Assembly: GCF_001854805.1 (NCBI RefSeq)
Contig: NZ_MBLO01000242.1
Coordinates: forward strand, 54,703-100,021
Length of the DNA: 45,319 bases
Direction: 5' to 3'
Source of the DNA: Pseudofrankia coriaricola
Lineage (GTDB): Bacteria > Actinomycetota > Actinomycetes > Frankiales > Frankiaceae
Shown here: piece after piece, positions 8,191-28,800 of the stretch
How positions within the stretch are numbered: the stretch's first letter is position 1
Layout: every line of letters starts with the position of its first letter
The notes under the pieces: generated by a model
Seen by the model: the letters and a program-made list of their open reading frames with translations, nothing else
The model's database searches: none
Told to the model about the DNA's origin: nothing
Made by a program: the position numbers and the translations under genes

Positions 8191-8502
8191 ATGGCTGGGG
8201 CCGAGCGGGTGCGAGTCGTGCTGGAACGATCCGGCGGGTTCGCCGGCCGGACGATCCGGCGCGGCCTGGACACCGATGACCTGCCGGCCGCGGAGGCGGA
8301 CCGCCTGCGGGCGCTCGTCGCCGCGCTCCCGGCGGCCTCCGGGCCGGTCGGGGCCACCGGGCCCGACCGGTTCACCTACGCGGTCGAGGTCGACGCGGGT
8401 GGCCGCCGCGGGTTGCACCACTTCGCGGAGCCGGTTCCCGCCGAGGCCAGGGACCTCGTCCAGCTGCTCTCCCGGGCCCCGCTGCTGCCCGCCTCCCGTT
8501 AG
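8191..8502 (+). CDS. Emfourin-like protease inhibitor
   Basis: A 103-aa protein resembling emfourin, the small inhibitor of protealysin-like M4 proteases: the opening VRVVLERSGGFAGRTIRRGL, then a short helix (AEADRLRALVAALP), DRFTYAVEVD and the terminal GLHHFAEPVPAEARDLVQLL. In Serratia protealysin and emfourin are encoded together; here the gene lies directly downstream of a protealysin-type protease, which supports the match. Its expected role is to bind the protease active site inside the cell and limit its activity. An in-frame GTG at 8167 could extend it by eight residues; ATG 8191 is preferred for its GGGGAGG site. The stop codon lies inside dispersed hairpin repeat copy 1. The assignment rests on remembered family features and synteny. 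Confidence 0.78.
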   Translation: MAGAERVRVVLERSGGFAGRTIRRGLDTDDLPAAEADRLRALVAALPAASGPVGATGPDRFTYAVEVDAGGRRGLHHFAEPVPAEARDLVQLLSRAPLLPASR

Positions 8503-8571
8503 TGATCCTGGGGACAACGGCCGCCGGGTGTGCGAAAGAAGATCATTTTCGCACACCCTTTGGCCCTCTAG
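8498..8571 (+). repeat. Dispersed hairpin repeat, copy 1
   Basis: A 74-bp element identical except for one base to 22967-23040 and related in inverted orientation to 28738-28800. The core is a 12-bp perfect stem, GGGTGTGCGAAA (8526-8537) with TTTCGCACACCC (8547-8558), around loop GAAGATCAT, with outer GGCC/GGCC pairs. It starts at the end of the inhibitor gene and supplies its stop codon. Confidence 0.92.
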
Positions 8572-9050
8572 GCCCTCTCCTGCCCCGCGGCGGTCACTGT
8601 CCGCCGCCCCCCGCGCCTGTTCCCAATACCCGACCCGCGATCACCGGCGCCCGGCGCGCGGAGCCCAGACCGTGATCGCTGCGTGGGTATGCGGGCCGGC
8701 GCTCCATGCCCTATTTTGTCCACTTTGTACATACCTGGCCCGCGATCAGTCTGGCATCTCGCCCGCGCGGCGCGTCGAAGATCGTCGACTGGGCATGCGA
8801 TCGGACTCCCGTGACCTGGCGGGTGGAGCCCCGTCAAAAGCCGCCCGGTTCCTGCGCCGACCGGGTCTCGGTCCGCCATCAGGGACCAACTCATCCGTTT
8901 GACGATCGACGGCCTCGAGAAATGGCCCAGGGCGGGCGCGGCCGGTTCTCGCGAAGATTCCTTTTGGCTTTCGCGCCTCTCGCCCAGCGTTTCCGGGGCG
9001 AGGTCCCGGGTATTCCACTGGCCTTACCGTCGAGCACGTCGGAGGCTGCC
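8572..9050. other. 479-bp stretch without a supported gene
   Basis: No ORF here shows convincing family features; the frame open from 8706 runs into the GlsB-like gene, but its first 115 codons look non-coding. The stretch holds an A+T-richer patch near 8709-8735 and, at its right end, the sigmaF/B-type promoter listed separately. Confidence 0.6.
8989..9013 (+). promoter_or_regulatory. Stress-sigma (SigF/SigB/SigH-type) promoter
   Basis: GTTT (8989-8992), exactly 15 nt, then GGGTAT (9008-9013). This matches the consensus of actinobacterial stress sigma factors (GTTT-N15-17-GGGTAT in mycobacterial SigF, similar for Streptomyces SigB/SigH). The start of transcription would fall near 9020, about 20 nt before the ribosome-binding site of a stress-type membrane protein gene. 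Confidence 0.75.
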
Positions 9051-9401
9051 GTGTTCCAAATCCTGTGGATCGTGATCGGCGGGGCGATCGTCGGCCTGCT
9101 CGCCCGCGCGCTGATGCGCCGGGGGAGCGTCCCGCTGTGGGCGACCGTCTGCCTGGGCATTATCGGCGCCCTTGTCGGTAATGTCATCGCCGGCGCGATC
9201 GGGGTACGCCACACCGGCGGAATTGACTGGATCCGCCATATTCTTCAGATCGGCGTCGCCTGTGGGCTCGTCGCGCTGGCCTCCCCGTTCTTCCTGCGCA
9301 GGCGCACCGGGGGCGGTGGCGTCGGCGGCGGGCCGTCACTGTTCGGCGGTGCTGGCCGCCGTTCCCACAGCCGCGACCGCTCGCACATCGACATGCGGTA
9401 G
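9051..9401 (+). CDS. GlsB/YeaQ/YmgE family stress membrane protein
   Basis: A 116-aa small membrane protein of the transglycosylase-associated (GlsB/YeaQ/YmgE) family, usually linked to general stress. Three hydrophobic, glycine-rich helices are visible: FQILWIVIGGAIVGLLARAL, PLWATVCLGIIGALVGNVIA and ILQIGVACGLVALASPFFL, followed by a Gly/Arg/Ser-rich tail. The start is GTG 9051, with GGAGG at 9041-9045 at ideal spacing; a longer frame back to 8706 exists but is not credible. A consensus stress-sigma promoter lies 38 bp upstream, consistent with the family's stress role. Its molecular function is not known. Confidence 0.88.
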   Translation: MFQILWIVIGGAIVGLLARALMRRGSVPLWATVCLGIIGALVGNVIAGAIGVRHTGGIDWIRHILQIGVACGLVALASPFFLRRRTGGGGVGGGPSLFGGAGRRSHSRDRSHIDMR

Positions 9402-9728
9402 TCACCAGCCGGGTCCGACGCCCGGTTCTCCCCGCACGCCGGCCGAGGGCGCCCGAGCCCCGGCCGGCGGACGCATGCTCGCGGGTGCCCGGCGGTCGCC
9501 GGGGTCAACGTGGACTGGGCGGCTTGGGTCGCCTGAACGGCTTGAGCGGCCTGGGCGTTGGGGCAGGTCGGCCGCGGCCGGAAAACGATTTGTCCGTTGT
9601 CGGACGGTCCCGCATGCTGATCCGGCGCGCATACCTGAGCCGGGCAGGCTTCCCGGCGACGACAACGCGCGGACGGACGGCCCGCGAGCGGAACGCCTGC
9701 CCGCCGCATGGAAGCAGGAGCAACAGTC
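9402..9728. other. 327-bp intergenic stretch before rtcB
   Basis: No gene is supported. It contains a weak CCGGG/CCCGG hairpin just after the stop of the GlsB-like gene and an imperfect inverted repeat (GTCCG-TTGT-CGGAC, about 9595-9608). No clear -35/-10 pair for rtcB was identified. Confidence 0.5.
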
Positions 9729-10943
9729 ATGAGCCCCGTGGCCCGGCTCGGTGGTGGGCGGGCGCCGATCTGGATGTGGACCCGGCCGGAGGGCGTGGAG
9801 AGCGCCGCTCTGGACCAGCTGCGCGCGATCGCCTCACTTCCCTACATCCACCACCACGTAGCGGTCATGCCGGACGTGCACCTGGGCAAGGGCGCGACGG
9901 TCGGCTCGGTCGTGGCGATGCGGGAAGCCGTCTCCCCGGCCGCGGTCGGCGTCGACATCGGCTGCGGGATGGCCGCGCTTCGCACGAGCCTGACCGCGTC
10001 CGACCTGCCGGACGACCTGGGCGCGGTGCGGTCCGCCATTGAGGCCGCCATCCCGGTCGGGCACCGCCATCACGCCGCCGTGTCCACCAGGGTCCGCCGC
10101 AGCGCCGACCTCTGGGATGCCTTCCCAGGCCTGCACCCGAAGGTCTCGGGCCTGCTGGGCAAGGCGATGACGCAGCTCGGCACCCTAGGGTCGGGTAACC
10201 ATTTCATCGAGCTGTGCCTCGATGCCGACGACGCGGTCTGGATGATGCTGCACTCCGGCTCCCGCAACATCGGCAAGGAGATCGCCGACGCGCACATCAG
10301 CGTCGCCAAGGGTCTGGCGCACAACACCGGCCTGCCCGACCGGGACCTCGCGGTGTTCCTCGCGGGCACGCCGGAGATGGCCGCCTACCGCCACGACCTG
10401 CGCTGGGCGCAGGAGTACGCGTGGCGCAACCGGCAGACCATGCTCGCGCTCTACGCCGACGCGCTGCGCGGTTTCTTCCCGTCGCTGCGGGTCCCGTGCC
10501 CGCCGGCCGAGGGCCCGCACACCGGCGAGGCGGCCTTCGCGAACGTCAACTGCCACCACAACTACGTCGCGGAGGAGCACCACTACGGCGCCGACGTGCT
10601 GGTAACCCGCAAGGGCGCGATCTCGGCGCGGGCCGGCGAGTACGGCATCATCCCGGGCTCCATGGGTACCGGCTCGTACATCGTCCGCGGTCTGGGCAAC
10701 CCGGAGGCGTTCGCGTCCGCGCCGCACGGCGCCGGGCGGCGGATGAGCCGGTCCAAGGCGCGCAAGACGTTCACCGTCGACGACCTGCTCGCCCAGACGG
10801 CCGGCGTCGAATGCCGCACCGACCCCGGCGTGCTTGACGAGATCCCCGCCGCCTACAAGGACATCGACGAGGTCATCGGCTTCAGCGGCGATCTTGTCGA
10901 GGTGGTCGCGCGGCTGCGTGCCGTCCTCTGCGTCAAGGGCTGA
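9729..10943 (+). CDS. rtcB: RtcB-type RNA ligase
   Basis: A 404-aa RtcB family protein, a GTP- and Mn2+-dependent ligase joining RNA 3'-phosphate or 2',3'-cyclic phosphate ends to 5'-OH ends. Visible family blocks: MPDVHLGKGATVGSV, the metal-binding VGVDIGCGM (Cys about 79), LGSGNHFIEL, HSGSRNIGKEIAD, NCHHNYVAEEHHYG, IIPGSMGTGSYIVRG, and ASAPHGAGRRMSR with the guanylylated His (about 333). All expected catalytic elements are present. ATG 9729 is preferred over ATG 9708 because AGGAG lies 8 nt upstream of it. No archease, RtcA or RtcR gene is adjacent, so the cellular substrate (damaged tRNA or rRNA) is unknown. Confidence 0.93.
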   Translation: MSPVARLGGGRAPIWMWTRPEGVESAALDQLRAIASLPYIHHHVAVMPDVHLGKGATVGSVVAMREAVSPAAVGVDIGCGMAALRTSLTASDLPDDLGAVRSAIEAAIPVGHRHHAAVSTRVRRSADLWDAFPGLHPKVSGLLGKAMTQLGTLGSGNHFIELCLDADDAVWMMLHSGSRNIGKEIADAHISVAKGLAHNTGLPDRDLAVFLAGTPEMAAYRHDLRWAQEYAWRNRQTMLALYADALRGFFPSLRVPCPPAEGPHTGEAAFANVNCHHNYVAEEHHYGADVLVTRKGAISARAGEYGIIPGSMGTGSYIVRGLGNPEAFASAPHGAGRRMSRSKARKTFTVDDLLAQTAGVECRTDPGVLDEIPAAYKDIDEVIGFSGDLVEVVARLRAVLCVKG

Positions 10944-11126
10944 ACCGGGACGGGACCGCCGCGACCGTCATGGTCATGGCTCGTGGACGGAGGACGTTCA
11001 CCGGAACGGACCTTACGGTGGGTCCTGTTCGTTGGACAATACGTTCCGGCACATGGCGGTTCCGGCCGGCCAGTGGCCGCGTGTCACTCCGTGGCCACTG
11101 GTCCCAGTGGAACAGGGAGGGCATGC

Positions 11127-11606
11127 GTGCCCGACGTCAGAGCGGTTCCAAACGACGACCTCACAGGCCTCGCGAGCCCGGCGGGACCCGTCGGCCCCGC
11201 CGAGCCGGCAGGCCCGGCAGATCCGGCGCAGTCCGCCTTCCACAGCTTCGACGCCGAGCGGCTGGAGATCCAGACCGGCGCGATGCGCGTCGCCGCCACC
11301 TTCGAGCCACCGATGCTCTCGATCGACGGCGACATCGACGTCTCGGTACTGCCGGCGCTCGTCGGCACGCTCGCGAAGGTCGCCCACCACGGCCGCGGCG
11401 ACGTCCGCGTCGACCTGGCGCGGCTGCGCCGCGTCGACGTCGGCGGCCTGCGGGCGCTGGTGGCCTCCGCGGGCAACCTGAACCGCGATGGGCGGCGCCT
11501 CGTGCTGCACGCCGCCGCGCCCTGGCTGCTCGGCCTGCTCATCGTCACCGGCTGGGACGACGCCCCGGGCCTGCGCGTGCTCCCCGGCCCGGTGCCCGCC
11601 GGGTAG
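11127..11606 (+). CDS. STAS-domain protein (anti-sigma-factor antagonist-like)
   Basis: A 159-aa protein with a low-complexity Gly/Pro/Ala N-terminus (residues about 12-36) and a single STAS domain (about 55-155): FEPPMLSIDGDIDVSVLPAL, then DVRVDLARLRRVDVGGLRAL and the terminal strand LVLHAAAPWLLGLLIVTGW. STAS proteins such as SpoIIAA are partners of anti-sigma kinases; here the usual phosphorylated Ser/Thr (D-S/T-x-G) is replaced: RVDVGGL has Val where Ser/Thr normally lies. It may thus be a non-phosphorylatable variant. The start is GTG 11127 with AGGGAGG 6 nt upstream. No anti-sigma factor gene is adjacent. Its 3' end abuts a degraded aminotransferase gene on the other strand. Confidence 0.8.
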   Translation: MPDVRAVPNDDLTGLASPAGPVGPAEPAGPADPAQSAFHSFDAERLEIQTGAMRVAATFEPPMLSIDGDIDVSVLPALVGTLAKVAHHGRGDVRVDLARLRRVDVGGLRALVASAGNLNRDGRRLVLHAAAPWLLGLLIVTGWDDAPGLRVLPGPVPAG

Positions 11607-11619
11607 CCGGGACGGCGAG

Positions 11620-11930
11620 GCCGCCTGCGCCGCGACCGCGGCGACGGTCGGAGCCGGGCAGTGGCCGGCCATCGCCCCGGTGTCGTCGAGGCAGAAGTCC
11701 ACATAGCTGTGCCCGTCGACGTCGGTGAGCCGGCACCCGGACGCGGACGACACCACCACCGGGTAGCTGCCGGGCCAGCGGGTCATCCAGTTCATCGGGA
11801 CTCCGGCGAGCTGTGAGCCGCGGGCCCGCTCGTACGCCGCTCCGGCGGCCGGATGGGTTTCGACGAATCGGGCGGTCTCGGCCGCGAGCAGCCTTTCCAG
11901 CCTTTCCGGGTCAACCACCGACATGGGCAC
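11620..11930 (-). pseudogene. 5' remnant of a class III aminotransferase gene
   Basis: The minus-strand frame from 11930 (or ATG 11924) encodes about 100 residues that look like the N-terminus of glutamate-1-semialdehyde aminomutase-like class III aminotransferases: MSVVDPERLERLLAAETARF, RGSQLAGVPMNWM, LTDVDGHSYVDFCLDDTGAM, then GHCPAPTVAAVAAQA. After about 11620 the similarity stops and the frame runs on only as antisense of the STAS gene. The PLP-binding lysine domain and everything else is missing (normal length exceeds 400 aa). It is most simply the stub left by a deletion or insertion whose junction is near 11607-11630. A TAAACT box lies just upstream of the old start. Confidence 0.7.
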
Positions 11931-12079
11931 TCAGTTTACGGACAGTCGCTCGCCGCGGACAGTGCGGCGGCCGGGGGCCCGAAGGTGCGCTCCGCTCTGT
12001 CAGCTACCCGGCATGGCGATGCTCAGGGGACTGACTCCGCCTAACTTCTCCTCATCGTGCTGTTTGGGGGAGGAACGGG

Positions 12080-12886
12080 ATGAAGCGAAAGATCGCAATA
12101 CCGTTGCTGGCGACCGTCGCGACTGGACTGCTGTTCGCCGGTGGTTGCGGGGGTTCCTCGGGGTCGCCAGGGGAAACGTCCACCCCGAGCGCGCCGAGCA
12201 CCGCCGCGACAGCCGCGCTGTCGCCGGCCCCGCCGTCCGAAGAACCGTCCGCGGACGCGTCGTTGCCGCCGGGAGCGCAACCGGGCGTGTTCGACCTCAA
12301 CGATGACGGCACCCCCGACCCCACGTGCGGCACCCAGGACTTCGGCGGCGGGCTGGTGCTGCGCATCCCCTGCGGGGACTTCAGCGGGTACGCCCACACC
12401 CCGGAGGACGGGACCACGCTGGTGCCGGACTCGCTCTACCGCCTGCCCGGGCCCGACGACGTCGACCTCAGCGGCATCTCGGGCGAGAACCTCCAGGCCG
12501 TCGACGATGCCGGCCGCGAGGTCTTCATCCTGATCTTCAACAGTGACGGCCTGTTCGAGACCGGCAGTGACGTCATCGGCAGCACGGACACGATGGACGC
12601 GACCATCAGGCTGATCAACGCGCACTACGCCGGCGGCGACATCCAGGTGCGCGGCCACACCGACGCGACCGGCTCGGCGAGCGTCAACCAGCCCCTGTCG
12701 GAACGCCGGGCGGCGACCGTCCAGCGCTACTTCACCGACCACGGGGTCCAGGCCGCCTCGGTCACGTCGGTCGGGCTCGGCAGCACGCACCCGCTGGTCC
12801 TGGAGACCAACCCGGACGGCTCCCCCAACCCCGCGGCCCAGCGCTTCAACCGCCGCGTCGAACTCGTCGTCCACCTGCCCAAGTAG
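12080..12886 (+). CDS. OmpA-domain lipoprotein
   Basis: A 268-aa secreted lipoprotein. A signal peptide (MKRKIAIPLLATVATGLLF) ends in lipobox FAGGC with Cys23 as the lipidated residue, followed by a Ser/Thr/Pro/Ala linker (about 24-65). The C-terminal 110 residues form an OmpA-like peptidoglycan-binding domain: DIQVRGHTDATGSASVNQPL, SERRAATVQRYFTDHG, then SVGLGSTHPL and AAQRFNRRVEL, including the Asp and Arg that bind diaminopimelate. It likely tethers the membrane to cell-wall peptidoglycan. The start is ATG 12080 with GGGAGGAA at good spacing. Downstream are small hairpins and then convergent uvrA. Confidence 0.9.
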   Translation: MKRKIAIPLLATVATGLLFAGGCGGSSGSPGETSTPSAPSTAATAALSPAPPSEEPSADASLPPGAQPGVFDLNDDGTPDPTCGTQDFGGGLVLRIPCGDFSGYAHTPEDGTTLVPDSLYRLPGPDDVDLSGISGENLQAVDDAGREVFILIFNSDGLFETGSDVIGSTDTMDATIRLINAHYAGGDIQVRGHTDATGSASVNQPLSERRAATVQRYFTDHGVQAASVTSVGLGSTHPLVLETNPDGSPNPAAQRFNRRVELVVHLPK

Positions 12887-12903
12887 GGCGACGCTGGCTC
12901 GAA

Positions 12904-12953
12904 GGTCGCTGGCGCGACCGCTCGCCGCGTCGCCGGTCGGGCGCGGAGCGCCC
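12904..12953. terminator. Tandem hairpins at the end of the OmpA-domain gene
   Basis: Two perfect 6-bp stems: GGTCGC/GCGACC (12904-12919) and GGGCGC/GCGCCC (12939-12953). Neither has a T-tract. They sit between the convergent OmpA-domain gene and uvrA and may end transcription. Confidence 0.35.
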
Positions 12954-13085
12954 TCCGGGCGTGGTACCGGATGCTGGCGTATAGCCGGGTCGGTGTGGTG
13001 CCGGGCCGAGGACGTGGCTGGGCTGACGCCGCGCTAGCGGCGCCGTCACCTGGCTTGGCCTGGGTCGCGCTGAATGGTTGCGGTG

Positions 13086-15998
<2,913 letters not shown>

Positions 15999-16770
15999 CC
16001 GCGTTCCCTCACGTCTTCTCGGCTTCGTCGGCCCCACCCGCGCCAGACCCGGCATCGCGTCCTGAGGCCGAGGGACAGCACCACGGCACCCGGAACGCCG
16101 ACCGCGGGTTCAGACCCGTGGTCCTGGCCCGGCGATGCTCCTTGCCCGGTGCTCACCTCGGTACGGACAACCCGGACCCGAGCAAAGGCACTCCCAGCGT
16201 ACGGATGGGATACGACACTTCTCGGACGCGGGACGCCTTCCCGAACGTCCGTTCGATACTAGCGGCCGGTATGAGAGTGTCCGCGGAGGGGCCACGCCGG
16301 GGCCACCATCCGAGCCGGTGCGGACCGGTGCGGACCGGGTGCGAGCCCGGCGGGCGGCGGACGCGGAGCGGGACGGGCGGCGTTTCGACCCCCGCATGCC
16401 CTCGTCGCGCCGAGGACGGCCTCCGGCCGCGGTGGGTCGAGCTCCGCTCCACCACCCCGTCCGCGGCCCGGGTGGAGTGGGATCTCCGTGATCGGCTTAG
16501 CGATTCCAGGGTGGACACAATGAGTCTTTTCGCCCCTCCGGCCACGATTCGGATCCGTATGCTGCCTATGCTTCATCTGGTCGGAACGAAACTTGGGATG
16601 AGATAGCCAGTTGGTACGACGTGACCGGCGTCATACTGTTTCCCCGACTCGCCGGAAAGAATTTCCGCGCGTGCCCGTCCCGGGTGGTTACGGTGGGTCC
16701 GGTCGTCAGGAACGCTGGTCGCAGAAATCACGACGAATAGCGGCTGGCCCGCGCCCAGGAGGGCGGAATA
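15999..16770. other. 772-bp divergent intergenic region (uvrA / glycosyltransferase)
   Basis: No gene is supported; the ORFs here are short, Arg/Pro-rich and without family features. It holds the LexA box listed separately, and a possible promoter for the glycosyltransferase: TTGGTA (16611-16616), 15 nt, CATACT (16632-16637). The remaining sequence is unexplained. Confidence 0.5.
16242..16256. promoter_or_regulatory. LexA (SOS) box
   Basis: CGAACGTCCGTTCGA contains the actinobacterial LexA core GAAC-N4-GTTC with matching flanks, as in the mycobacterial consensus TCGAAC-N4-GTTCGA (one flank base differs). It lies 244 bp from the uvrA start on the minus strand and 515 bp before the glycosyltransferase. 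uvrA is the natural target. Confidence 0.75.
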
Positions 16771-17778
16771 TTGCACAGCCTGCTCGCGGTCGTCGTCTCC
16801 TACGGCGGCTCGCCCCACCTGAATGGACTACTCAGCGCGCTCGCCGGCATGGCGGGCTGCCAGGTCGCGCTCGTCGAGAACAAGCTCGGCGGGCAGCACG
16901 GCACCGTGCCCGATGGCGTGCGGGTGTACGCCGAGCACGGCAACATCGGCTACGGCGCGGCGGTGAACCTCGCCGTCAAGCGTGCCCTGGCGGCCCCGCC
17001 GCCGGGCGACGGCTCATCCGGCGGCATTCCGGACTGGCTGCTGGTCGTCAACAGCGACGTCACCATTCCCCCTGACACCCAGGAGATGCTGCCGAAGCTC
17101 CTGGCCCAGGCGCCCGCCGACGTCGACGTCCTCGGGTTCGCGATCCGCACGGACGACGGCGGCCCGGGGCGGTCGACCGCGGTGCTGCCGACCATCGGCA
17201 CCAGCGCCTTCACCGCGCTGCGCGGGGAGGCCGCAGCGGTGGTGCGCTGGCCGGCGCTGCGGTACCCGGTCGGGGCGTTCTTCGCGATTCGCGGGTCCGC
17301 GTTCCTGCGGATCGGCGGCTTCGACCCATCCTTCTGGCTGTACTACGAGGAGACGGACCTGTTCGCCCGGCTGCTCGCAACCGGCGGGCGGATCGACTGG
17401 TGCGGCGATGCCTGGCCGGTACTCCACACCGGCGGTGGCACCGCGGGCCGGGACGCGGAGCTCCAGCGCGAGCTCGGCCGGGCGGCCGTGGCCTACGCCC
17501 TGCGCCACCGCGAGACCATCGGCCGCGGCTGGCTGCCCGTCCACGCGGCGCAGCTCGCCCTGTTGACCGGCCGCAAGGCGGTCCTAGGCCGGTGGCCCGA
17601 CGCCAGAAGGTCCGCCTGGATCCTCGCCGGCCTGCTCCAGGCGGCCACGCTGCCCGGGCGGGAGCCCGCCGCCCGGTCGCGCTGGCACGCGGTTCCTACC
17701 AGGACCCGGATCGCGCTCGCCGGCCTCGACGACATCCCGCCGCGCCCGGCGGGCTTTGGCGGCCCTCGGAGAGAATGA
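16771..17778 (+). CDS. GT2-family glycosyltransferase
   Basis: A 335-aa cytosolic family-2 glycosyltransferase of the rhamnosyltransferase/WsaF-like type, transferring sugar from a nucleotide-sugar donor to an unknown cell-envelope glycan. Visible: N-terminal LLAVVVSYGGSPHLNGLLSAL, ENKLGG, HGNIGYGAAVNLAVKRAL, the donor/metal site WLLVVNSDVTI (NSD in place of DXD), YPVGAFFAIRGSAFLRIGGF, then the acceptor-side FWLYYEETDLFARLLATGG and the conserved HTGGGT. The start is TTG 16771 with AGGAGG 8 nt upstream, and the preceding frame is closed nearby. No other glycan genes are adjacent, so its product cannot be named. Confidence 0.85.
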   Translation: MHSLLAVVVSYGGSPHLNGLLSALAGMAGCQVALVENKLGGQHGTVPDGVRVYAEHGNIGYGAAVNLAVKRALAAPPPGDGSSGGIPDWLLVVNSDVTIPPDTQEMLPKLLAQAPADVDVLGFAIRTDDGGPGRSTAVLPTIGTSAFTALRGEAAAVVRWPALRYPVGAFFAIRGSAFLRIGGFDPSFWLYYEETDLFARLLATGGRIDWCGDAWPVLHTGGGTAGRDAELQRELGRAAVAYALRHRETIGRGWLPVHAAQLALLTGRKAVLGRWPDARRSAWILAGLLQAATLPGREPAARSRWHAVPTRTRIALAGLDDIPPRPAGFGGPRRE

Positions 17779-17835
17779 CGACGCCGGAAACATCGGGCGC
17801 GGCCGCGGGCCGCCGGTGGCAGTGCTGGAGGAACG

Positions 17836-18501
17836 ATGAGCGTGCGCGGGTACACGGGCGATGTCACGGTGGGCGGGCCGGCGGACGTCCGGGAGCTGCC
17901 CGGCCTGACGGTCACCAAGGTCGCGGTCGGCCCGTTCGACAACAACTGCTACCTGCTGCGCTGCACCGCGACCGGCGAGCAGCTGCTCATCGACGCGGCC
18001 AACGAGCCGGACACCCTGCTGCGCGTGATTGGCGACGAGGGCCTGGCCACCGTGGTGACCACGCACCGCCACGCCGACCACATCCAGGCGCTCTCCGACA
18101 TCGTCGCGGCCACCGGCGCGACCACCGTCGCCCACCCGGACGACGCGCCCGCGATCCCGGTGCCCACCGCGGCGCTGCTGCGCGACGGCGAGGCGGTCCG
18201 GGTCGGCGAGGTCACCCTGCGGGCGATCCACCTGGTCGGCCACACCCCTGGCTCGATCGCCCTGCTCCACGACGCCGACCCGGCCGCCCCGCACCTCTTC
18301 ACGGGCGACTGCCTCTTCCCGGGCGGGCCGGGGAACACGCGCAACGACGCGGCCGCCTTCACCTCCCTGATGGACGGCCTGGAGACGAAGGTCTTCGGCC
18401 CACTGCCGGACACCACCTGGATCTACCCGGGCCACGGCAAGGACAGCACCCTTGGCCGCGAGCGCCCCCACCTGGCCGAATGGCGCACCCGCGGCTGGTA
18501 G
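17836..18501 (+). CDS. MBL-fold metal-dependent hydrolase (glyoxalase II-like)
   Basis: A 221-aa metallo-beta-lactamase-fold hydrolase. Metal motif THRHADHIQ (HxHxDH, about residues 76-81), then HLVGHTPGSIALL, FTGDCLFPGGPGNT and the terminal WIYPGHGKDSTLGRERPHLAEW are typical of the glyoxalase II-like branch, which hydrolyses thioesters; the exact substrate is not determinable. The start is ATG 17836 with GGAGG directly upstream (good spacing). It lies 57 bp after the glycosyltransferase and could share its transcript, but the functions are not obviously linked. Confidence 0.9.
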   Translation: MSVRGYTGDVTVGGPADVRELPGLTVTKVAVGPFDNNCYLLRCTATGEQLLIDAANEPDTLLRVIGDEGLATVVTTHRHADHIQALSDIVAATGATTVAHPDDAPAIPVPTAALLRDGEAVRVGEVTLRAIHLVGHTPGSIALLHDADPAAPHLFTGDCLFPGGPGNTRNDAAAFTSLMDGLETKVFGPLPDTTWIYPGHGKDSTLGRERPHLAEWRTRGW

Positions 18502-18560
18502 GGCGGTCGGCAGGTCGGGTGAAGTCGGGAGCCCTGGGCTTGCGACGTGCGCAAACGTGG

Positions 18561-18572
18561 CAGGCTGACAAT
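18561..18572 (+). promoter_or_regulatory. Possible -10 box for a leaderless WYL gene transcript
   Basis: CAGGCT (18561-18566) lies 6 nt before the GTG start, with TTGCGA (18540-18545) as a possible -35 box at short spacing. No Shine-Dalgarno sequence is present between them and the start codon. Confidence 0.35.
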
Positions 18573-19109: not shown

Positions 19110-19158
19110 GCCCCGGGCGGGCGCCCCGGCGGCCCGGCTGCGTGGCCGGGCGCCGGGC

Positions 19159-20514
19159 TCAGCGGCCAGGGTGGTGGTTGGGGCGGCCGAAGCTGGAGGG
19201 GATCACGGTGCGGCCGCGCAGTGGGGCCGTCTCGATCGCGCGGCGGATCTCCGCCGGCCCGACCAGCCCGACCACCCGGGGACGTCCCCGCTCGTCGGGC
19301 TGCTCCTCGTCGAGGACCAGGACGTAGCCGGCGGCGGGCCGGCTGGCGAGCCGGGGGGCGACGATCGTCAGCGGCTCGTCGGGACGCGCCGTGGGGACCG
19401 AGGACAGGGGGATCGTCACCCGGCTCACCCTGGCGAGGCCGCGGTCGTCGAGCGGCACGGCGGCCAGGGCACGCGCCAGCGCGACCCCGGCCAGCGACTC
19501 GTCGAAGTCATGCACGGTGAACACGCTGGACACCGCACTCCCCGGCGCCGCGACGGAGCGCAGGGCCTCGTCCACGGTCTGCCACGACGACAGCCGGGGT
19601 GGCGGCGGGAGCATGACATCGCGGACGAACACGCCCTCGAGCGCGGTGCCGGCGCGCTGGCGCGCCTGCGCCAGCCGGGAGGTGCCCAGCGCCATCCAGC
19701 CCAGCAGCACCGCCCACAGCCCGATCAGCCCGACGAGGAAGCAGGCGGCGACACCCGCGGCGATCATCGCCCACCCGATGAAGACGCCGGTCCGCGCGAC
19801 GACCGCCTCCGCCCGGCGGGGGTCTCCGGTACGGCGCAGCACGAACGCGGCCAGGATCCGCCCGCCGGGGGTGCGGGGCGACGGCAGCAGGTCGACCAGG
19901 GTGATGAGCAGGATGAACGTCCCCACCCACAGCGCCACCTGCGCGGCGAGGGCGAGCGTCCCCCCGGGCGCGAGCGCGCCGAGCGTCACGAGGACCGCGC
20001 CGAGCAGGCCCGTCGTCAGCAGGCCCGCGCGGGCGATGGCCGCGTCCGCCCGCGGGTCGAGCCCGCCCGGCCAGGGCTGGCTCCCGCCGGCCGCCTCGCG
20101 AGGCTCGGCCGGCGTGCCCGGCCGCTGCGCGCCGCTGGAGGGCTCCGCCGGGTAGGGCTCCGCGGGGACTCCCCAGACGATCTCGTCGTCGGGGCGGTGC
20201 CAGCCGCCCGGCGCTGACGGCCGGGCGAGCACGAGCCGGCTGCCGAACGCGCCGAGCACGATCGCGTGGACGTCGAGCCCGGCCCGCCGGGCCGCGACGG
20301 ACCGCAGCAGGTCAGCGGCGACCAGGATCGCCAGCAGCAGGAGAGCGCCCAGCAGGCCGGCACTGAAGTACGCGGACCCCGTCCGGTTCGGGACGGTGAC
20401 CGGCAGCGTCAGCCAGCCGAGCAGCGCGGTGACGACCGCGACCGAGACAGCCAGCCCCGGACGCACGGTGATCCGGGGCAGCCGCCCGCCCCGGCCCGCG
20501 TCATGGGTGGTCAT
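19159..20514 (-). CDS. Degenerate site-2 protease (Rip3-like M50) with CBS domain
   Basis: A 451-aa membrane protein laid out like Rip3-type site-2 proteases: N-terminal helices, an M50 membrane core, and a C-terminal part after VRDVM that resembles a CBS pair. The segment VDLLPSPRTPGGRILAAFVL and FVLRRTGDPRRAEAVVARTG match the family closely. However, the zinc motif HExxH is replaced (ILVAADLLRSVAARRAG) and the second metal motif N/LPxxPLDGGR reads LLPSPRTPGGR, losing the Asp. Proteolysis is therefore unlikely; a binding or regulatory role is inferred. A hydrophilic insert (about residues 120-165, Pro/Ala/Glu-rich) interrupts the core. The start ATG 20514 has AAAGGAG upstream. It is divergent from uvrB. 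Confidence 0.8.
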   Translation of the reverse strand: MTTHDAGRGGRLPRITVRPGLAVSVAVVTALLGWLTLPVTVPNRTGSAYFSAGLLGALLLLAILVAADLLRSVAARRAGLDVHAIVLGAFGSRLVLARPSAPGGWHRPDDEIVWGVPAEPYPAEPSSGAQRPGTPAEPREAAGGSQPWPGGLDPRADAAIARAGLLTTGLLGAVLVTLGALAPGGTLALAAQVALWVGTFILLITLVDLLPSPRTPGGRILAAFVLRRTGDPRRAEAVVARTGVFIGWAMIAAGVAACFLVGLIGLWAVLLGWMALGTSRLAQARQRAGTALEGVFVRDVMLPPPPRLSSWQTVDEALRSVAAPGSAVSSVFTVHDFDESLAGVALARALAAVPLDDRGLARVSRVTIPLSSVPTARPDEPLTIVAPRLASRPAAGYVLVLDEEQPDERGRPRVVGLVGPAEIRRAIETAPLRGRTVIPSSFGRPNHHPGR

Positions 20515-20715
20515 TGCGCCTGCGGCTCCTTTCGAGGTTGCCTGCGCAGATTTGCCCTGCGCTGTTGCCCTACGCTCACTCAACGTCTGTCGTGCCCCTA
20601 GCCCTCCCGCCCGAACCGGCGATCTCGCCTCCAGTACCAGGGATCATGTGGTCCTCCAACGGATCCGGCCACTCGCCTCGGAAACTTGTCGGAGCCTTGT
20701 GGTGTTCTGGAAGAC

Positions 20716-22845
<2,130 letters not shown>

Positions 22846-22875
22846 CGGCGGCCCAGAACCGGCAGCGCTGTCGAC

Positions 22876-22903
22876 CCGGCCGGCACCTTCCGTGCCGAGC
22901 CGG
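22876..22903 (+). terminator. Hairpin terminator after uvrB
   Basis: A stem of 11 bp with one bulged base and a 5-nt loop, 30 bp after the uvrB stop, without a T-tract. It precedes hairpin repeat copy 2. Confidence 0.5.
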
Positions 22904-22966
22904 CCGAGAGCGGCCGGTATGGGCCCGGCGACAGTCGTGGCCGCCGGGAGTCTCCTGATCCGGTCT

Positions 22967-23040
22967 GTTAGTGATCCTGGGGACAACGGCCGCCGGGTGT
23001 GCGAAGGAAGATCATTTTCGCACACCCTTTGGCCCTCTAG
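22967..23040 (+). repeat. Dispersed hairpin repeat, copy 2
   Basis: A 74-bp element identical to 8498-8571 except for one base. The stem is GGGTGTGCGAAG (22995-23006) with TTTCGCACACCC (23016-23027), so the one change makes a G-T wobble instead of A-T. It lies between convergent uvrB and the Nudix gene and supplies the Nudix stop codon on the minus strand (23037-23039). Confidence 0.92.
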
Positions 23041-23558
23041 CCGGCGGACAGCGCGGCGAGGGCGGACGTGACGAGGTGGCGCATCAGGCCGGGCCGGGTG
23101 CCGCGGTATCCGGCCAGGAACTCGGCGGGCGGCAGGAGGACCCGGCCCGCCGACTCGTGACCGTCCGTCCAGGGGAGCAGGCGGTGGACCCGGGCGACAT
23201 AGATGATCATATAGGTCAGGTCGTCCGGGCCGAAGTAGTCCGACTCGATGACCTCGACCAGCGTCAGCTCGCCCAGCTCGGCCCTGATCTCCTCGAGCGC
23301 CTCGCGGCGGGCCGTCTCCTCGGGCGACGTGTCGCGCCACTGGACGTGCCCGCCGGGCAGGTCGAGCCCGCGCGCGAGCTCCGCGAGCACCAACCGGCCG
23401 TCGTCGTCGACGGCGACCACCGAGGCGCTCGTCACGGCCTCGAACGCCGGCCGGGCCTCCCGCCCGAGACAGGTCAGCCGGGTCGGGCCCCGACCCGGTC
23501 GCGACCGCACCGTCGGGCGCCGATCCTCATCCGCCGCCGGGCTGCCCGCCGCCGTCAT
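23037..23558 (-). CDS. Nudix hydrolase family protein
   Basis: A 173-aa Nudix-fold protein; the family hydrolyses nucleoside-diphosphate-linked compounds. The fold is seen in VTSASVVAVDDDGRLVLAEL, GLDLPGGHV and a Nudix box around EETARREALEEIRAELG. The core REx2EE is kept, but the box has an extra residue before it and the final conserved Gly is Arg, so it departs from G-x5-E-x7-REU-x-EE-x-G-U. The metal-binding Glu pair remains, so activity is plausible but not certain. The first 35 residues are an Arg/Pro-rich extension. The start ATG 23558 has GGAGGGTGAGGG upstream. The last codons and stop lie at the edge of hairpin repeat copy 2. Confidence 0.82.
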   Translation of the reverse strand: MTAAGSPAADEDRRPTVRSRPGRGPTRLTCLGREARPAFEAVTSASVVAVDDDGRLVLAELARGLDLPGGHVQWRDTSPEETARREALEEIRAELGELTLVEVIESDYFGPDDLTYMIIYVARVHRLLPWTDGHESAGRVLLPPAEFLAGYRGTRPGLMRHLVTSALAALSAG

Positions 23559-23647
23559 CTGCCCTCACCCTCCGTGCCCGGCCCGGCCAGGCCGCCTCTA
23601 CGATCATGCACTACCGCGTCCTGGTGGCGATCGAGGACGTGAGCGGG

Positions 23648-23659
23648 GACAATCGGCGC
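23648..23659 (+). promoter_or_regulatory. Possible -10 box for a leaderless Uma2 gene transcript
   Basis: GACAAT (23648-23653) lies 6 nt before ATG 23660 within GGGGACAATCGGCGCATG, nearly the same context as before ATG 8191 (GAGGACAATCGCCGTATG). No Shine-Dalgarno precedes the start. Confidence 0.4.
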
Positions 23660-24136
23660 ATGACCATGATCAGTGTTCCCGCTGAGATCACGCTTGGCGA
23701 TGTGGCCGCCATGGGAGAGGCCGACGAACTGCATCGCTACGAGCTCAGTGACGAGGGGGAGCTGCGGGTCATGATGACGCCGACACCGGAGCACTCCCGC
23801 ATCGTCATGCGGCTGACCGCCTGGTTCCTGCGGAACGGGTCCGACGAGGAGCGGCTGCGGACCGACCTTGGCATCTACACGGGCGGCGGTCGCCAGCCCG
23901 ACCTGACGGTGTGGTCGGACGCCGCGCCCGACGTCGGTGTCGCCTCGGTCTACGTCCCGGTGGACGGGCTTCAGGTCGTCATCGAGGTCGTCTCTCGCGG
24001 GTCGCGGCAGAACGACCTCGTGGACAAGGCCAGTGAGTACGCCCGGGCGGGCATCGAGCGGTACTGGACGGTCGAGCAGGGCGGCACCCAGCCGGTCACG
24101 TTTCGAACCCTGGCGACGGGCCGTTACTCCGCATAG
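23660..24136 (+). CDS. Uma2-type PD-(D/E)XK nuclease family protein (short)
   Basis: A 158-aa protein of the Uma2/DUF820 family, a restriction-endonuclease-fold group abundant in cyanobacteria and actinobacteria whose biological role is unclear. Visible: ITLGDVAAMGEADELHRYEL, the helix with HSRIVMRLTAWFL, the presumed catalytic RQPDLTVWS Asp, VVIEVVSRGSRQNDLVDKAS with Glu and Lys, and YARAGIERYWTVE. The catalytic core looks intact. It ends early (TLATGRYSA), about 30 residues short of the usual C-terminus, and no other frame downstream restores the missing strand. The start is ATG 23660 (ATG 23666 possible). It is followed by its own hairpin terminator, so it is a solitary gene. Confidence 0.82.
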   Translation: MTMISVPAEITLGDVAAMGEADELHRYELSDEGELRVMMTPTPEHSRIVMRLTAWFLRNGSDEERLRTDLGIYTGGGRQPDLTVWSDAAPDVGVASVYVPVDGLQVVIEVVSRGSRQNDLVDKASEYARAGIERYWTVEQGGTQPVTFRTLATGRYSA

Positions 24137-24145
24137 GGACCGCGC

Positions 24146-24169
24146 CCGCTTGAGTGGGTGCTCAAGCGG
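24146..24169 (+). terminator. Hairpin terminator after the Uma2 gene
   Basis: A perfect 9-bp stem (CCGCTTGAG with CTCAAGCGG) around a 6-nt loop, 10 bp after the Uma2 stop codon, without a T-tract. Confidence 0.6.
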
Positions 24170-24254
24170 CACCCTGGCGACTTCGGACTGAGCTAAGCGG
24201 CGGCGCCAGCCGGGCGGACGTCGCCTGTGGGCTGCTTGTGGGCTGACCGCCCGC

Positions 24255-24668
24255 TCAGGCGCGGAGAAGCTCGTCGAGGACGGCGTCGAGCTCGCGCTCG
24301 GGGTGCTCCTGGCCGGCCGGGACGACCCGCTCGGTGCGCTCCAGGAAGTCGCGCAGCGGTTCGGCGCCGAGGATGACGGTTGAGCGCGAGGCGCCGTCGG
24401 TGAGCTCCAGCTGCACCTCGGCGCGGCGCGGGTCGGGGGTGAAGCGCACGTCGCCGTCGCCAGTGGGCTTCTCCAGCCCGGCGCGCAGCGCGTCCCGCGG
24501 GGCCACCCAGTTGCCCTGGGGCAGCGCCGGGTGGTCGGGCCGGGAGACCAGGGTGATGCTGACGGCCAGCGGGTCGCAGGCACGCCAGGTGACCACGAGG
24601 ACAGTGACCCGCCCGCTCGTCGACGCGTCGTCGACGACGAACTCGGTGCTGACGTCCAGACCCTGCAC
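24255..24668 (-). CDS. SsgA-like sporulation/cell-division protein (SALP)
   Basis: A 137-aa SsgA/SsgB-family protein. SALPs occur only in morphologically complex actinobacteria and steer septum placement and spore-wall processes; SsgB recruits FtsZ in Streptomyces. Family features: VTWRACDPLAVSITL (the Y/W-x-x-x-DP-x-AV pattern), GNWVAPRDALRAGLEKPTGD, GDVRFTPD, then LGAEPLRDFLERTERVVPAG and an acidic helix at the end. The start is GTG 24668 with GGGAGGG 7 nt upstream. It is solitary. It is one of the best clues to a sporulating actinomycete host such as Frankia. Which SALP subclass it belongs to cannot be told here. Confidence 0.87.
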   Translation of the reverse strand: MQGLDVSTEFVVDDASTSGRVTVLVVTWRACDPLAVSITLVSRPDHPALPQGNWVAPRDALRAGLEKPTGDGDVRFTPDPRRAEVQLELTDGASRSTVILGAEPLRDFLERTERVVPAGQEHPERELDAVLDELLRA

Positions 24669-25130
24669 GGGTGGGTCCCTCCCTTGATGCGCCTGCCAGG
24701 CCGACGACGACGCTTTCTCCCAGCAGCCAAGTTTCCCAGTTGCTGATTTGAGGGTCGCAGCGTCGCGTCCCAGGTGCCAGCCGGATGCGGACGGCTTGCC
24801 GACAGGCAGCCGCGCCCCGCGGCGTCATCGCCGCTGTGCTGTCTTCCTGGTGGCGCTCTCGCGGGAGGTCCCCGACAGCGGATGCGCCCCTATAGCCGTG
24901 CACCCTTACGGTGATGCGCCCTTGCTGCCGTACGCGGTATGGCAATACCGACGCGCGCCTTCCGGCCCCACTGCCATAGGCCTTGCGGCGACATCACCAT
25001 CCGCCCGGCGGCAACGCCGGCCACGCTGCGCGCCGCCACCCCCCAGCGGCGGCGCGCACTCGCGCAAGCACGCTACGTCCACGATACGTGGTGCTCCTCG
25101 CCCGCGCCTGGACGGGTAGGGAAAGGGCGG

Positions 25131-25160
25131 TAAAGAAAAGAGGCCCGTGCGGGCGGGCCT
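25131..25160 (-). terminator. Minus-strand rho-independent terminator with no assigned gene
   Basis: Read on the minus strand: a 7-bp stem AGGCCCG/CGGGCCT with a 6-nt loop (25141-25160), followed by CTTTTCTTTA (25140-25131). It is the only T-rich terminator in this intergenic stretch. No convincing minus-strand gene lies between it and uvrC. Confidence 0.65.
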
Positions 25161-25532
25161 GTCCCACGGGGCGGCGGCCCCGCCCCGCCCGATCGGCGGC
25201 CACACACCTGTAGCTGTCTTTCGGCGCTGGCGCGCCGCTCGCCGGGCTGACCTGGCTCTCGCGGGCGGTGGCCGCTCACCCGTGCGCGCGCCGCGCCGAC
25301 CGCCGCGCCCGGGAACGGCGGCGCGGCGGACGGGCGCCGCGACGCGCGTGGGCCGCCAGGAACGCGGCGCGCGAGGGACTTCATAAGGCTGTGGGGGCCC
25401 GGTACGCCGTGCGCGAGACACGGTAAGGACACGGAGCGGTCGGGTTCGCGGGGCACCCCTAGGCGGGTATCGACGCTCTGCGTGATGAAATGGTTACGTG
25501 GAGGCGCTGTCTGATCGTGACCCGGGCCGCCG

Positions 25533-25544
25533 TAGGCTCGACCT
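25533..25544 (+). promoter_or_regulatory. -10 box for a probable leaderless uvrC transcript
   Basis: TAGGCT (25533-25538) fits the TANNNT -10 consensus and ends 6 nt before ATG 25545, so transcription would start at or next to the A of ATG. No Shine-Dalgarno is present. No clear -35 box is seen. Confidence 0.5.
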
Positions 25545-27827
25545 ATGGCTGATCCGGCGTCTTACCGACCCGCGCCGGGCTCGATCCCCGAGACCCCGGG
25601 CGTGTACCGCTTCCGGGACCCTCATGGCCGCGTCCTCTACGTCGGCAAGGCCAAGAACCTGCGCGCCCGGCTCGCCAACTACTTCACCGACGTCTATGCG
25701 CTGCATCCTCGCACCCGCACGATGGTCACCACCGCGAGCTCCGTCGAGTGGACCGTCGTGTCCACCGAGGTCGAGGCGCTCGCGCTGGAGTACACCTGGA
25801 TCAAGGAGTATGACCCGCGGTTCAACGTCCGCTACCGCGACGACAAGAGCTACCCGAGTCTCGCCGTGACGCTGCAGGAGGAGTTCCCGCGACTCCAGGT
25901 CATGCGCGGGCCGAAGCGCAAGGGTGTCCGCTACTTCGGCCCCTATGCGCACGCCTGGGCCATCAGGGAGACGCTGGACCTGCTGCTGCGGGTGTTCCCG
26001 GCGCGTACCTGCTCCGCCGGCGTCTTCAAGCGCGCCGGGCAGGTCGGCCGGCCGTGCCTGCTCGGCTACATCGACCGCTGCAGCGCGCCCTGCGTCGGAC
26101 GGGTCACAGCGAGCGAGCACCGCCAGATCGTCGATGACTTCTGTGACTTCATGGGCGGCCAGACCGGCAGGTTCCTGCGCCGGCTGGAGAAGGAGATGCG
26201 GGACGCCGCCGACGCCCAGGACTACGAGCGGGCCGCCCGGCTGCGCGACGACGCCGGCGCGCTGCGCCGCGCGATGGAGAAGCAGGCTGTCGTGCTGCCC
26301 GATGGCACCGACGCCGACGTCGTCGCGTTCGCCGACGACGAGCTGGAGGCGGCGGTCCAGGTCTTCTACGTGCGCGACGGCCGGGTGCGCGGCCAGCGCG
26401 GCTGGGTCGTCGACAAGCTGGCGGACGTTGGCACCCCCGACCTCGTCGAGCAGTTCCTCACCCAGGAGTACCTGGGGGACAAGGACGTGGGCGACGGTGC
26501 CCCTTCGGGCGGCGAGGGGCAGGCCGACATCCCGCGGGAGGTCCTCGTCCCGGAGCTGCCGACCGACGCCGAGGCCGTGGCCGAGCTGCTCGGCCGCTAC
26601 CGCGGCGGGCGGGTCGAGGTGCGCGTCCCGCGCCGCGGCGACAAGCGGACGCTGTTCGAGACCGTGGAGCGCAACGCCAAGCAGGCGCTCATGCTGCACC
26701 GCACCCGGCGCGCGAGTGACCTGACGGCGCGTAGCCAGGCGCTCGCCGAACTGCAGGAGGCGCTCGGCCTCGCCGACGCGCCGCTGCGGATCGAGTGCTT
26801 CGACATCTCGAACATCCAGGGCACCAACGTCGTGGCGAGCATGGTCGTCTTCGAGGACGGCCTGCCCCGCAAGTCCGAGTACCGGCGCTTCTCCATCCGG
26901 GGAGTGGCCGGCCAGGACGACGTCGCGAGCATGTACGAGACGGTTGGCCGGCGGTTCAGCCGGTACCTGGCCGAACGGTCGCGTACAGGCGAGCTGCCCG
27001 GCACGGAGGAGGACGCCCGGAGCGAGGCCGGGCCAGCCGGCCTGACCGTCGAGGACGGCGGGGGCGCGCTGACCTCCCGGATCACGACCTCCCAGATCGC
27101 CGACCTCCCAGATCGGCTCCGCCGATCGGGCAGGGACCCTGTCGCCGATCCGGCAGGGACCCCGTCCGCCGATCCGGCAGGGACCCTGGGGTCGAGCGAG
27201 CTCCCCGCCGGCGAGCCGCTGGTGGTCGACGGGCGGCCCCGCAGGTTCGCCTACCCGCCGAACCTGGTCGTCGTCGACGGCGGGCCCCCGCAGGTCGCCG
27301 CGGCGGCGCGGGCGCTGGCGGACCTGGGGATCGAATCGGGGCCTGGCGGGGTGGCCCTGTGCGGGCTCGCCAAGCGCCTGGAGGAGGTCTGGCTGCCGGA
27401 CGACCCAGACCCGGTCATCCTGCCGCGCACCAGCGAGGCGCTCTACCTGCTGCAGCGGGTGCGGGACGAGGCTCATCGGTTCGCGATCACCTACCACCGG
27501 CAGAAGCGGTCCGCGTCGATGACGGCGTCGCTGCTGGACGGCGTGCCGGGACTGGGCGAGACCAGGCGCAAGGCGCTGCTGCGCACGTTCGGCTCGGTCG
27601 CGAAGCTGCGGGCGGCGAGCGTCGAGGAGATCGCCGGCGTGCCCGGGATCGGCCCGCGCACCGCCGCCGCCGTCGTCGCGGCGCTCGCCCAGAGCGCCCC
27701 CGGGGCGCCCGCCGCACCCGCGCCGGCAGTCGACCCGCTCACGGGCGAGGTCCTGACGGAGAACTCGACGACAGAGAACTCGACGACAGAGGGAGAGCAC
27801 GCCGTGACAGGGGGGAATACGCCGTGA
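25545..27827 (+). CDS. uvrC: Excinuclease ABC subunit C with an 80-residue insert
   Basis: The nuclease of nucleotide-excision repair that makes both incisions; 760 aa, longer than the usual 600-680. Order: GIY-YIG domain ([20 protein letters not shown], residues about 18-47); four-Cys cluster ([23 protein letters not shown], with the x7 and x3 spacing of the known Fe-S ligands); UVR motif ([20 protein letters not shown], about 225); RNase H-like nuclease with [12 protein letters not shown] and [15 protein letters not shown]; and (HhH)2 ([31 protein letters not shown]). Between the halves of the nuclease domain, residues about 485-565 are a low-complexity insert carrying repeats (27071-27189). 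The C-terminus has a TENST repeat. Its stop overlaps the rapZ start by 4 bp (GTGA). Confidence 0.96.
27071..27189 (+). repeat. Compound palindromic/tandem repeat inside uvrC
   Basis: About 119 bp, built of GACCTCCCRGATC direct repeats, an inverted repeat (GATCGGCTCCGCCGATC), then three units of about 22 bp with core GCCGATCCGGCAGGGACC. The same ordered structure lies in yvcK at 29909-30028, on the same strand. In UvrC it is translated as a Asp/Pro/Gly/Ala-rich linker. Confidence 0.85.
27759..27788. repeat. 15-bp tandem duplication at the uvrC 3' end
   Basis: Two perfect 15-bp copies (GAGAACTCGACGACA) encode a repeated ENSTT pentapeptide in the disordered UvrC tail, followed by a partial third unit. 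Confidence 0.85.
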
Positions 27828-28705
27828 CCGCCGCCGCACCCAGCGGGCCGCTGGATCTCGCGATAATCACTGGGCTGTCCGGCGCCGGCCGCAGCACCGC
27901 GGCCAAGTGCCTGGAGGACCTGGGCTGGTTCGTCGTCGACAACCTGCCACCGGCGCTGTTGTCGACGATGGCCGAGCTGGGCCGGCGCTCCGGCGGCGGC
28001 GTCAGCCGGATCGCGGTCGTCGTCGACGTGCGCGGCCGCGCGTTCTTCGCCGACCTGCGGGCGGCGCTCGACGCGCTCGACGCCGCCGGCACCCGGCCGC
28101 GGGTGCTGTTCCTGGAAGCCAGCGACGACGCGCTGATCCGCCGGTTCGACCACGTCCGCCGCCCGCACCCGCTGCAGGGCGACGGCCGGGTCGTCGACGG
28201 CATCAGCCGGGAGCGGGCGCTGCTCGCCGAGCTGCGCGGAGAGGCCGACCTGGTGCTCGACACCACCGACCTCAACGTCCACGAGCTGCGCTCGAAGATC
28301 GACGCCGCCTTCGGGCAGCCGGGTGGCAACCGGCTCAACGCCACGGTCATCTCGTTCGGCTACCGCTATGGGCTGCCGCTGGACGCGGACCTGGTCGCCG
28401 ACTGCCGCTTCCTGGCCAACCCGCACTGGGTGGAGGCGCTGCGGCCGTTCACCGGCCGCGACCCCCAGGTGCGCGACTACGTCCTCGATCAGCCGGGCGC
28501 CAAGGAGTTCGTCGACCGGTACGCCGAGCTGCTGCGCCTCGTCGGCGAGGGGTACCTGCGCGAGGGCAAGCGGTACCTGACCCTCGCCGTCGGCTGCACC
28601 GGCGGGCGGCACCGCAGCGTCGCCGTCGCCGAGGAGCTCGCCGCGCGGCTCGCCGCGACCGGCGTCGGCGTCCAGATCGTGCACCGCGACCTGGGCCGGG
28701 AGTGA
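27824..28705 (+). CDS. rapZ: RNase adapter / P-loop nucleotide-binding protein RapZ
   Basis: A 293-aa RapZ (YvcJ) family protein, a P-loop ATP/GTP-binding protein. In E. coli it guides RNase E to the GlmZ small RNA and so tunes amino-sugar synthesis; in Gram-positives, including actinobacteria, the role is less defined. Visible: Walker [53 protein letters not shown], the Walker B-like [35 protein letters not shown], and [18 protein letters not shown]. The start GTG 27824 overlaps the uvrC stop (GTGA), so translation is coupled. The uvrC-rapZ-yvcK-whiA order is conserved in actinobacteria. Confidence 0.95.
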
Positions 28706-28737
28706 CGCCCGTGCCCCACCACCCCCACGACGTGGAA

Positions 28738-28800
28738 GGCCAAAGGGCGTGCGAAAATGATCTTCCTTCGCACGCCCGGCGGCCGCTGTCCCAGGACTAC
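28738..28800 (-). repeat. Dispersed hairpin repeat, copy 3 (inverted, covarying)
   Basis: A 63-bp match to the reverse complement of copies 1 and 2. Read on the minus strand, the stem is GGGCGTGCGAAG with TTTCGCACGCCC: the fourth base pair is C-G here and T-A in the other copies, a compensatory change. The loop GAAGATCAT is unchanged. It lies in the 109-bp gap between rapZ and yvcK. Confidence 0.9.

Follow-up and report, generated by a model that had tools for sequence, protein, structure and literature searches.

The ends of IS200/IS605 elements form hairpins, and such elements insert 3' of a short site without duplicating it. These sites are chosen by tetranucleotide guides located 5' of the palindromes (PMC8266576). 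The REPs carrying a GTAG tag are described in PMC3733652 as multi-copy palindromes that often lie at gene ends, where the tag supplies TAG stops, with some copies inside genes or in clusters and with covariation in the stem; the same account includes the CGTC REPs, which it says lack a dedicated transposase. The main text of PMC3733652 does not mention Frankia. In-frame copies of Rickettsia palindromic elements (RPE) within genes are reviewed in PMC10969869. Among the open-licence PubMed Central papers listed for small repeats of Frankia and Pseudofrankia, none deals, by its title or abstract start, with the 69-bp family described here.

We examined a window of 45,319 nucleotides from the soil actinobacterium Pseudofrankia coriaricola (the whole stretch of DNA analysed; contig NZ_MBLO01000242.1, positions 54,703 to 100,021). 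An initial annotation had proposed that it holds three near-identical copies of a hairpin element, the first two differing at one base and the third having a stem T-A pair replaced by C-G on both arms, and direct reading of the three sites confirmed this: a single position of 69 distinguishes copy 1 from copy 2, and of the 12 positions that differ between copies 2 and 3 the two in the upper stem (27 and 53) constitute the one compensatory change. In place of the extents first assigned (63–74 bp), the family frame suggests 69-nt units that include TGATCCTGGGGACAAC at the 5' end and CTCTAG at the 3' end. The hairpin itself stood, with a stem longer than the proposed 12 bp, having a GGCC/GGCC foot beyond a conserved GCC/TTT internal loop. 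Family-wide we take the loop as 11 nt; the proposed 9 nt result from treating R-T as one more pair that closes it.

Copy 1 occupies 8503..8571 on the plus strand (a 69-nt unit read directly and matched by the covariance model), with its hairpin at 8519..8565 (plus strand), in which an 11-bp stem stands on the GCC/TTT internal loop and GGCC foot and carries an 11-nt loop at 8537-8547. It is preceded on the same strand by a target-like left flank, CCCGTTAG, at 8495..8502 (direct reading; family consensus CCCGYYAG), within which lies the TAG stop (8500-8502) of an emfourin-family gene. Copy 2, also a directly read 69-nt unit on the plus strand (22972..23040), has a hairpin at 22988..23034 (plus strand), and its terminal CTAG (23037-23040) gives a minus-strand NUDIX gene (23037-23558) its TAG stop. 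Hence the idea that two copies supply a stop codon was right for copy 2 and wrong for copy 1, whose TAG stands 5' of the unit. The G006 counterpart of the copy 2 site (relatives are numbered as below) has TTAG, giving the NUDIX gene a TAA stop, and this is likely the earlier state. Copy 3 is an older, diverged unit on the minus strand (28732..28800; 68 nt if its first base is counted to the target) in the interval between rapZ and a CofD-family gene; it lies 26 nt beyond the rapZ stop, its hairpin with the T-A to C-G change lies at 28738..28784 (minus strand), and its site is empty in both G005 and G006. The stretch 3' of copy 1 (8572-8800) is mostly absent in G005, with 304 query bases between two matched pieces, so the copy 1 site has been changed by more than the element.

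A genome-wide search showed that there are not three copies in the host but more than 160. Within its 11.2 Mb (280 contigs), 167 matches to the core pattern were found with up to 3 mismatches, 85 and 82 on the two strands, versus 0 for the same pattern read backwards. BLAST and covariance-model searches gave at least 88 pieces (40 of 190 candidates scored) and at least 153 matches (150 of 15,394 candidates scored), respectively, and as each scored only part of the candidates these host totals are inexact. A crude test based on shared 25-mers was positive in the window and also in 1 of 20 shuffles, so we relied on the backwards-pattern control. Among 58 genomes (the host, seven of its genus and 50 more distant relatives) there were four carriers, namely the host (G000, 167 matches) and the genus-mates G006 (35), G005 (10) and G004 (4); the core-pattern scan found no copies in the other genus-mates (G001, G002, G003 and G007) or in the 50 more distant relatives. 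In a contig collection covering 84,980 species we identified 11 stretches. Six of them belong to Pseudofrankia asymbiotica NRRL B-16386, four to Frankia nepalensis CN7 and the last to a Pantoea MAG that lacks the rest of the element; the phage, plasmid and viral (IMG/VR) collections gave no match. The annotation had not recognised a named family, in agreement with which Rfam 15 gave 0 matches at gathering score within the window.

Each unit contains one hairpin, in which the apical 11-nt loop and a 3x3 internal loop are conserved and the stem covaries; loop letters hardly vary and stem letters do. In the main form, consensus A, the order is TGATCCTGGGGACAAC, the GGCC foot, GCC, the 11-bp stem, the 11-nt loop, the returning stem, TTT, GGCC and CTCTAG. 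Among the 156 complete host copies 24 are identical to consensus A, 56 are within two changes and 66 within six, and 19 are within six changes of a second form, B. The right end is CCCTCTAG in 91 of the 156 and resembles the target CCCGYYAG, and copies 1 and 2 have no inverted repeat of 8 nt or longer joining both ends. We counted pairing over 131 distinct hairpins from four genomes, from which four chance matches of a relaxed core pattern (L127, L239, L257 and L273) had been removed. Of all cells 93.3% pair, and 163 are changed on both sides, against an average of 57 over 500 shuffles, none of which reached 163. Kinship among copies inflates this shuffle control and not a second one, in which partners were slid by 1–3 columns and 5–19 two-sided cells remained versus the 163. 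At one stem pair the family has C-G 43 times, G-C 41, U-A 29 and A-U 3. Together with the high copy number and the empty sites described below, the covariation bears out the original reading of a dispersed REP/MITE-like element.

Gene positions were taken from our own simple codon-usage gene caller. They placed 69 of the 127 host loci between co-directed, 21 between convergent and 12 between divergent genes, with 10 in a reading frame; the 15 too near contig ends were dropped, which left 112 placed loci, 102 of them outside frames. That copies sit at gene ends, as first suggested from the window, was borne out across these loci: genes end toward either side of the element at 48 and 63 loci, the nearest stop is at a median distance of 2 nt, and it lies within 10 nt at 56 of the 90 loci having such a stop. 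The genes that stop no more than 12 nt from the element number 19 at its 5' end, all by a TAG of the target, and 39 at its 3' end (TAG 25, TGA 10, TAA 4), where 30 of the stops are inside the terminal YYAG; the 3' excess may be overstated because genes cut short by insertion would also count there. No locus belongs to both groups, and background stop use is TGA 354, TAG 103 and TAA 39. About half of the intergenic loci (49 of 102) lie exactly on a stop codon versus 9–15% expected, where 9% is the share of non-coding YYAG sites overlapping a stop (333 of 3,634) and 10–15% the share for stricter motifs. The copies at the ten host loci inside called reading frames contain no stop in that frame, in part simply because of how genes were called; two copies are inside a host glycosyltransferase gene. 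An FtsK/SpoIIIE-family gene that is uninterrupted in G000 is lengthened in G006 and G004 by a stretch containing GGSAKEGDFRTPPG or GGAKEEHFRTPFD, and this insert is independent support for in-frame copies.

The element has moved, and its presence or absence at given sites differs between species; the analysis recorded no new transposition. We compared the three window sites and sets of seven and nine pairs, and seven intergenic empty sites were readable in relatives (window copy 3, L152, L095, L160, L024, L055 and L072). The other comparisons comprised two coding pairs that read as in-frame inserts, one pair filled in both genomes, and the rest, which were blurred by indels. All seven empty sites have YAG directly before the insertion point (e.g., that of copy 3 in G006 lies between GGGCAG and GTCGTG in the element's direction), and none of the seven showed a target duplication beyond the shared AG. 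The left flank from -8 to -1, compiled from 83 of the 156 copies (tandem and off-frame starts left out), reads C.66, C.88, C.73, G.51, Y.92, Y.95, A.88, G.94, so that the insertion point is 3' of a CCCGYYAG-like site; TTAG (26), TCAG (19), CTAG (9) and GTAG (4) occur among these flanks. The right flanks of the same 83 non-tandem copies have no comparable letter preference. At L055 there is an extra T.

Head-to-tail arrays were found at 24 of the 127 loci (2 units at 18, 3 at 5 and 4 at 1), the units typically sharing a CTAG joint in which CTAG is followed directly by TGATCC, and one three-unit host array corresponds to a single recognisable copy in G006. Eight host contigs (C40, C57, C65, C106, C135, C191, C255 and C264) terminate inside tandem units, and as the draft assembly breaks in arrays these sizes are lower bounds. 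Five loci (L137, L100, L107, L145 and L047) have array periods of about 63–72 bp and joints other than YYAG (CCCTCTGA, CCCTGTGTT and others), and are perhaps slippage products or sister families.

The window also contains, at 27069-27189 inside the uvrC frame (25602-27827), another palindromic repeat, larger than the first and made up of ACCTCCCAGATCG and CGATCCGGCAGGGACCC units. Among the matches listed, similar stretches occur at other places of the host genome as well as in G002, G003, G004 and G005, and as G002 and G003 carry it this repeat also occurs without the 69-bp family. Composite long forms, in which the 69-bp element has arms of the second repeat inside its 5' part, were seen at L153:3183-3292 and, upstream of the core, at L177, L211, L159, L143 and L130, with the arms repeated several times in the last two. 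A stretch of ~177 bp at 12894-13070 of the window, which is not the 69-bp element, has an 80% match at G000:C216:72215-72390.

Based on these results we consider the family to be, in all probability, a small palindromic mobile element that is REP/RPE-like and non-autonomous, and it is probably handled in folded, single-stranded form. A trans-acting protein would recognize the folded strand by its apical and internal loops and join it 3' of a YYAG target. Target and element end would perhaps both be chosen by pairing with the internal CTGGGG, as with the guides of IS200/IS605. This hexamer, 5 nt upstream of the hairpin foot, can pair at all six positions with CTCTAG, which no other 6-mer in the 5' part does, and at 5 of 6 with the usual target; the predicted RNA fold includes the CTGGGG-CTCTAG pairing in copies 1 and 2 and a similar pairing in copy 3. 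Pairing of the putative guides to their own ends is in slight excess over permuted ends (5.03 versus 4.83), which shared ancestry may explain. Landing on a stop would be harmless, because for a gene on the 5' side the TAG of the target would stay in place and for one on the 3' side the CTAG of the element would replace C-TGA, C-TAA or C-TAG; this suggests a low-harm strategy of landing on a stop codon and giving one back. Points against this reading are the left flank letters at L160, L152 and L095, which differ from the ancestral ones (at L160 the right end carries the ancestral letters), the extra T at L055, the arrays with 63–66 bp periods that end in letters other than YYAG, and the lack of a mover in our searches.

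An origin from a RAYT/IS200 system with a resident enzyme was rejected, as no gene for a Y1 transposase (PF01797; IS200/IS605 and RAYT) was found in the four carriers, three of which are drafts of 170–400 contigs. It is possible, if doubtful, that the copies are instead cast-offs of such a system, i.e., true REPs whose Y1 transposase has since been lost: the hairpin, YYAG-like site, target-like end, stop codons and intragenic copies all have counterparts among the REPs of PMC3733652, and a guide 5' of the hairpin would have one in PMC8266576. However, the one genus-mate with a Y1 transposase (G007) has no element copies, and the many near-identical copies argue for recent activity. Searches for a helitron/IS91-type Y2 HUH transposase (PF04986) gave 0 in the eight genus genomes, with the control genomes silent as well, so that a Y2 mover may yet be present. 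Of the proteins listed between neighbouring copies ten were tested and none of these was of a mobile type, eight matching ordinary families (including Lsr2 and DUF4229) and two matching none. No autonomous version with the same ends was found among the scored matches (40 of 190 candidates), and the partial matches, besides the hairpin's own reverse complement, were at contig ends or, in one case, beside another copy. In G006, with dnaA at C1:1,410,373 and an assumed terminus, the orientations at 26 loci (7 matches on contig C2 left out) are 11 versus 15, i.e., there is no strand bias such as lagging-strand, single-strand transposition might give. The many near-identical copies, the readable empty sites in near relatives and the narrow carrier range allow a hunt for the mover that compares which genes are present. 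We propose only tentatively, and as rather unlikely, the more specific reading of a folded-strand element that homes to stops, replaces them with its CTAG, and has a mover from an enzyme family so far tied to no palindromic repeat.

The initial annotation had suggested an element kept for its hairpin, as a stabiliser or terminator at RNA 3' ends or as a protein site. A hairpin that serves the host by stopping transcription or protecting mRNA 3' ends would fit the position at stop codons, the strong predicted RNA fold of the window copies (-33 to -34 kcal/mol; z -3.9) and stem changes that preserve pairing family-wide. Against it, no terminator-like site was called at the three window copies, which have no T run, ten loci are in called frames and 12 of 102 lie between divergent genes, sites are empty in close relatives, and pairing is often lost in place. 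The 12 copy pairs compared from two genomes, some of which lie in arrays and are of uncertain orthology, differ at 41 stem pairs, 21 being broken by a one-sided change and 2 by a two-sided one, with 12 one-sided and 6 two-sided changes still paired. Seven copies could be aligned across both flanks in one piece; there 25 stem pairs have changed, and 14 of these fail to pair in one of the two genomes. The number of broken pairs tends to be higher in copies that have no near-identical sister (Spearman 0.34; 0.13, 0.62, 0.83, 0.5 and 3.0 by bin, the last bin having 3 copies), and it seems that pairing is held while a lineage multiplies and loosened afterwards. As pairing is often lost in copies that stay put, the hairpin is apparently kept for spreading and not for a 3'-end RNA role, which we therefore regard as improbable, and covariation by itself is no proof of a host RNA function. 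The copies may still have a side effect on mRNA ends.

IS607-type serine recombinases exchange at a dinucleotide, and a circle integrated at the shared AG by such a site-specific recombinase would account for AG on both sides, for variable letters adjoining AG on either side, and for the tandem joint, which is the joint expected of a circle. To our knowledge these recombinases need no covarying hairpin with conserved loops, which would be superfluous, and we think integration of this kind unlikely. Least plausible of all is RNA-templated spread, in which a reverse transcriptase would copy the hairpin RNA of transcript ends into DNA: the gene-end position and the reverse transcriptase genes of seven of the eight genus genomes (nine matches in the host) fit it, but such genes are as present in the copy-free G001, G002 and G003 as in the carriers, by which we rejected them as the mover, and target similarity is confined to the 5' side of the insertion point.

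The favoured reading, a folded-strand mobile element, can be set against the described systems. With the GTAG REPs and their RAYTs it shares high copy number, mostly extragenic position and a covarying stem, but it is 69 bp long, whereas these REPs are palindromes of 20–40 bp with a terminal GTAG, a tetranucleotide that flanks just 4 of 83 element copies on the left; its arrays are head-to-tail and theirs are mainly head-to-head dimers, and with no Y1 transposase found in its four carriers it lacks a defining feature of RAYT-linked REPs. It resembles the CGTC REPs and RPE in having no known dedicated transposase and in its in-frame copies. Those have a CGTC tag, an 8–9 bp stem and a 4–5 nt loop, in contrast to the 11-bp upper stem, 11-nt loop and TGATCC and CTAG ends found here, and most element copies are intergenic at stops (102 of 112 placed loci outside frames). 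It shares a hairpin with the ends of IS200/IS605 and, as they do, inserts 3' of a short motif (YAG at 7 of 7 sites) with no target duplication; a guide beside the hairpin would be a further likeness. It differs from them in that it has no transposase gene and a single hairpin serves both ends. Like the MITEs of DDE transposons described in PMC10969869 it is short, non-autonomous and multi-copy with open frames; unlike them, it has neither terminal inverted repeats nor a target duplication. Because tag, size and transposase set it apart we do not file the element as a member of any REP or RPE family, although it behaves like them.
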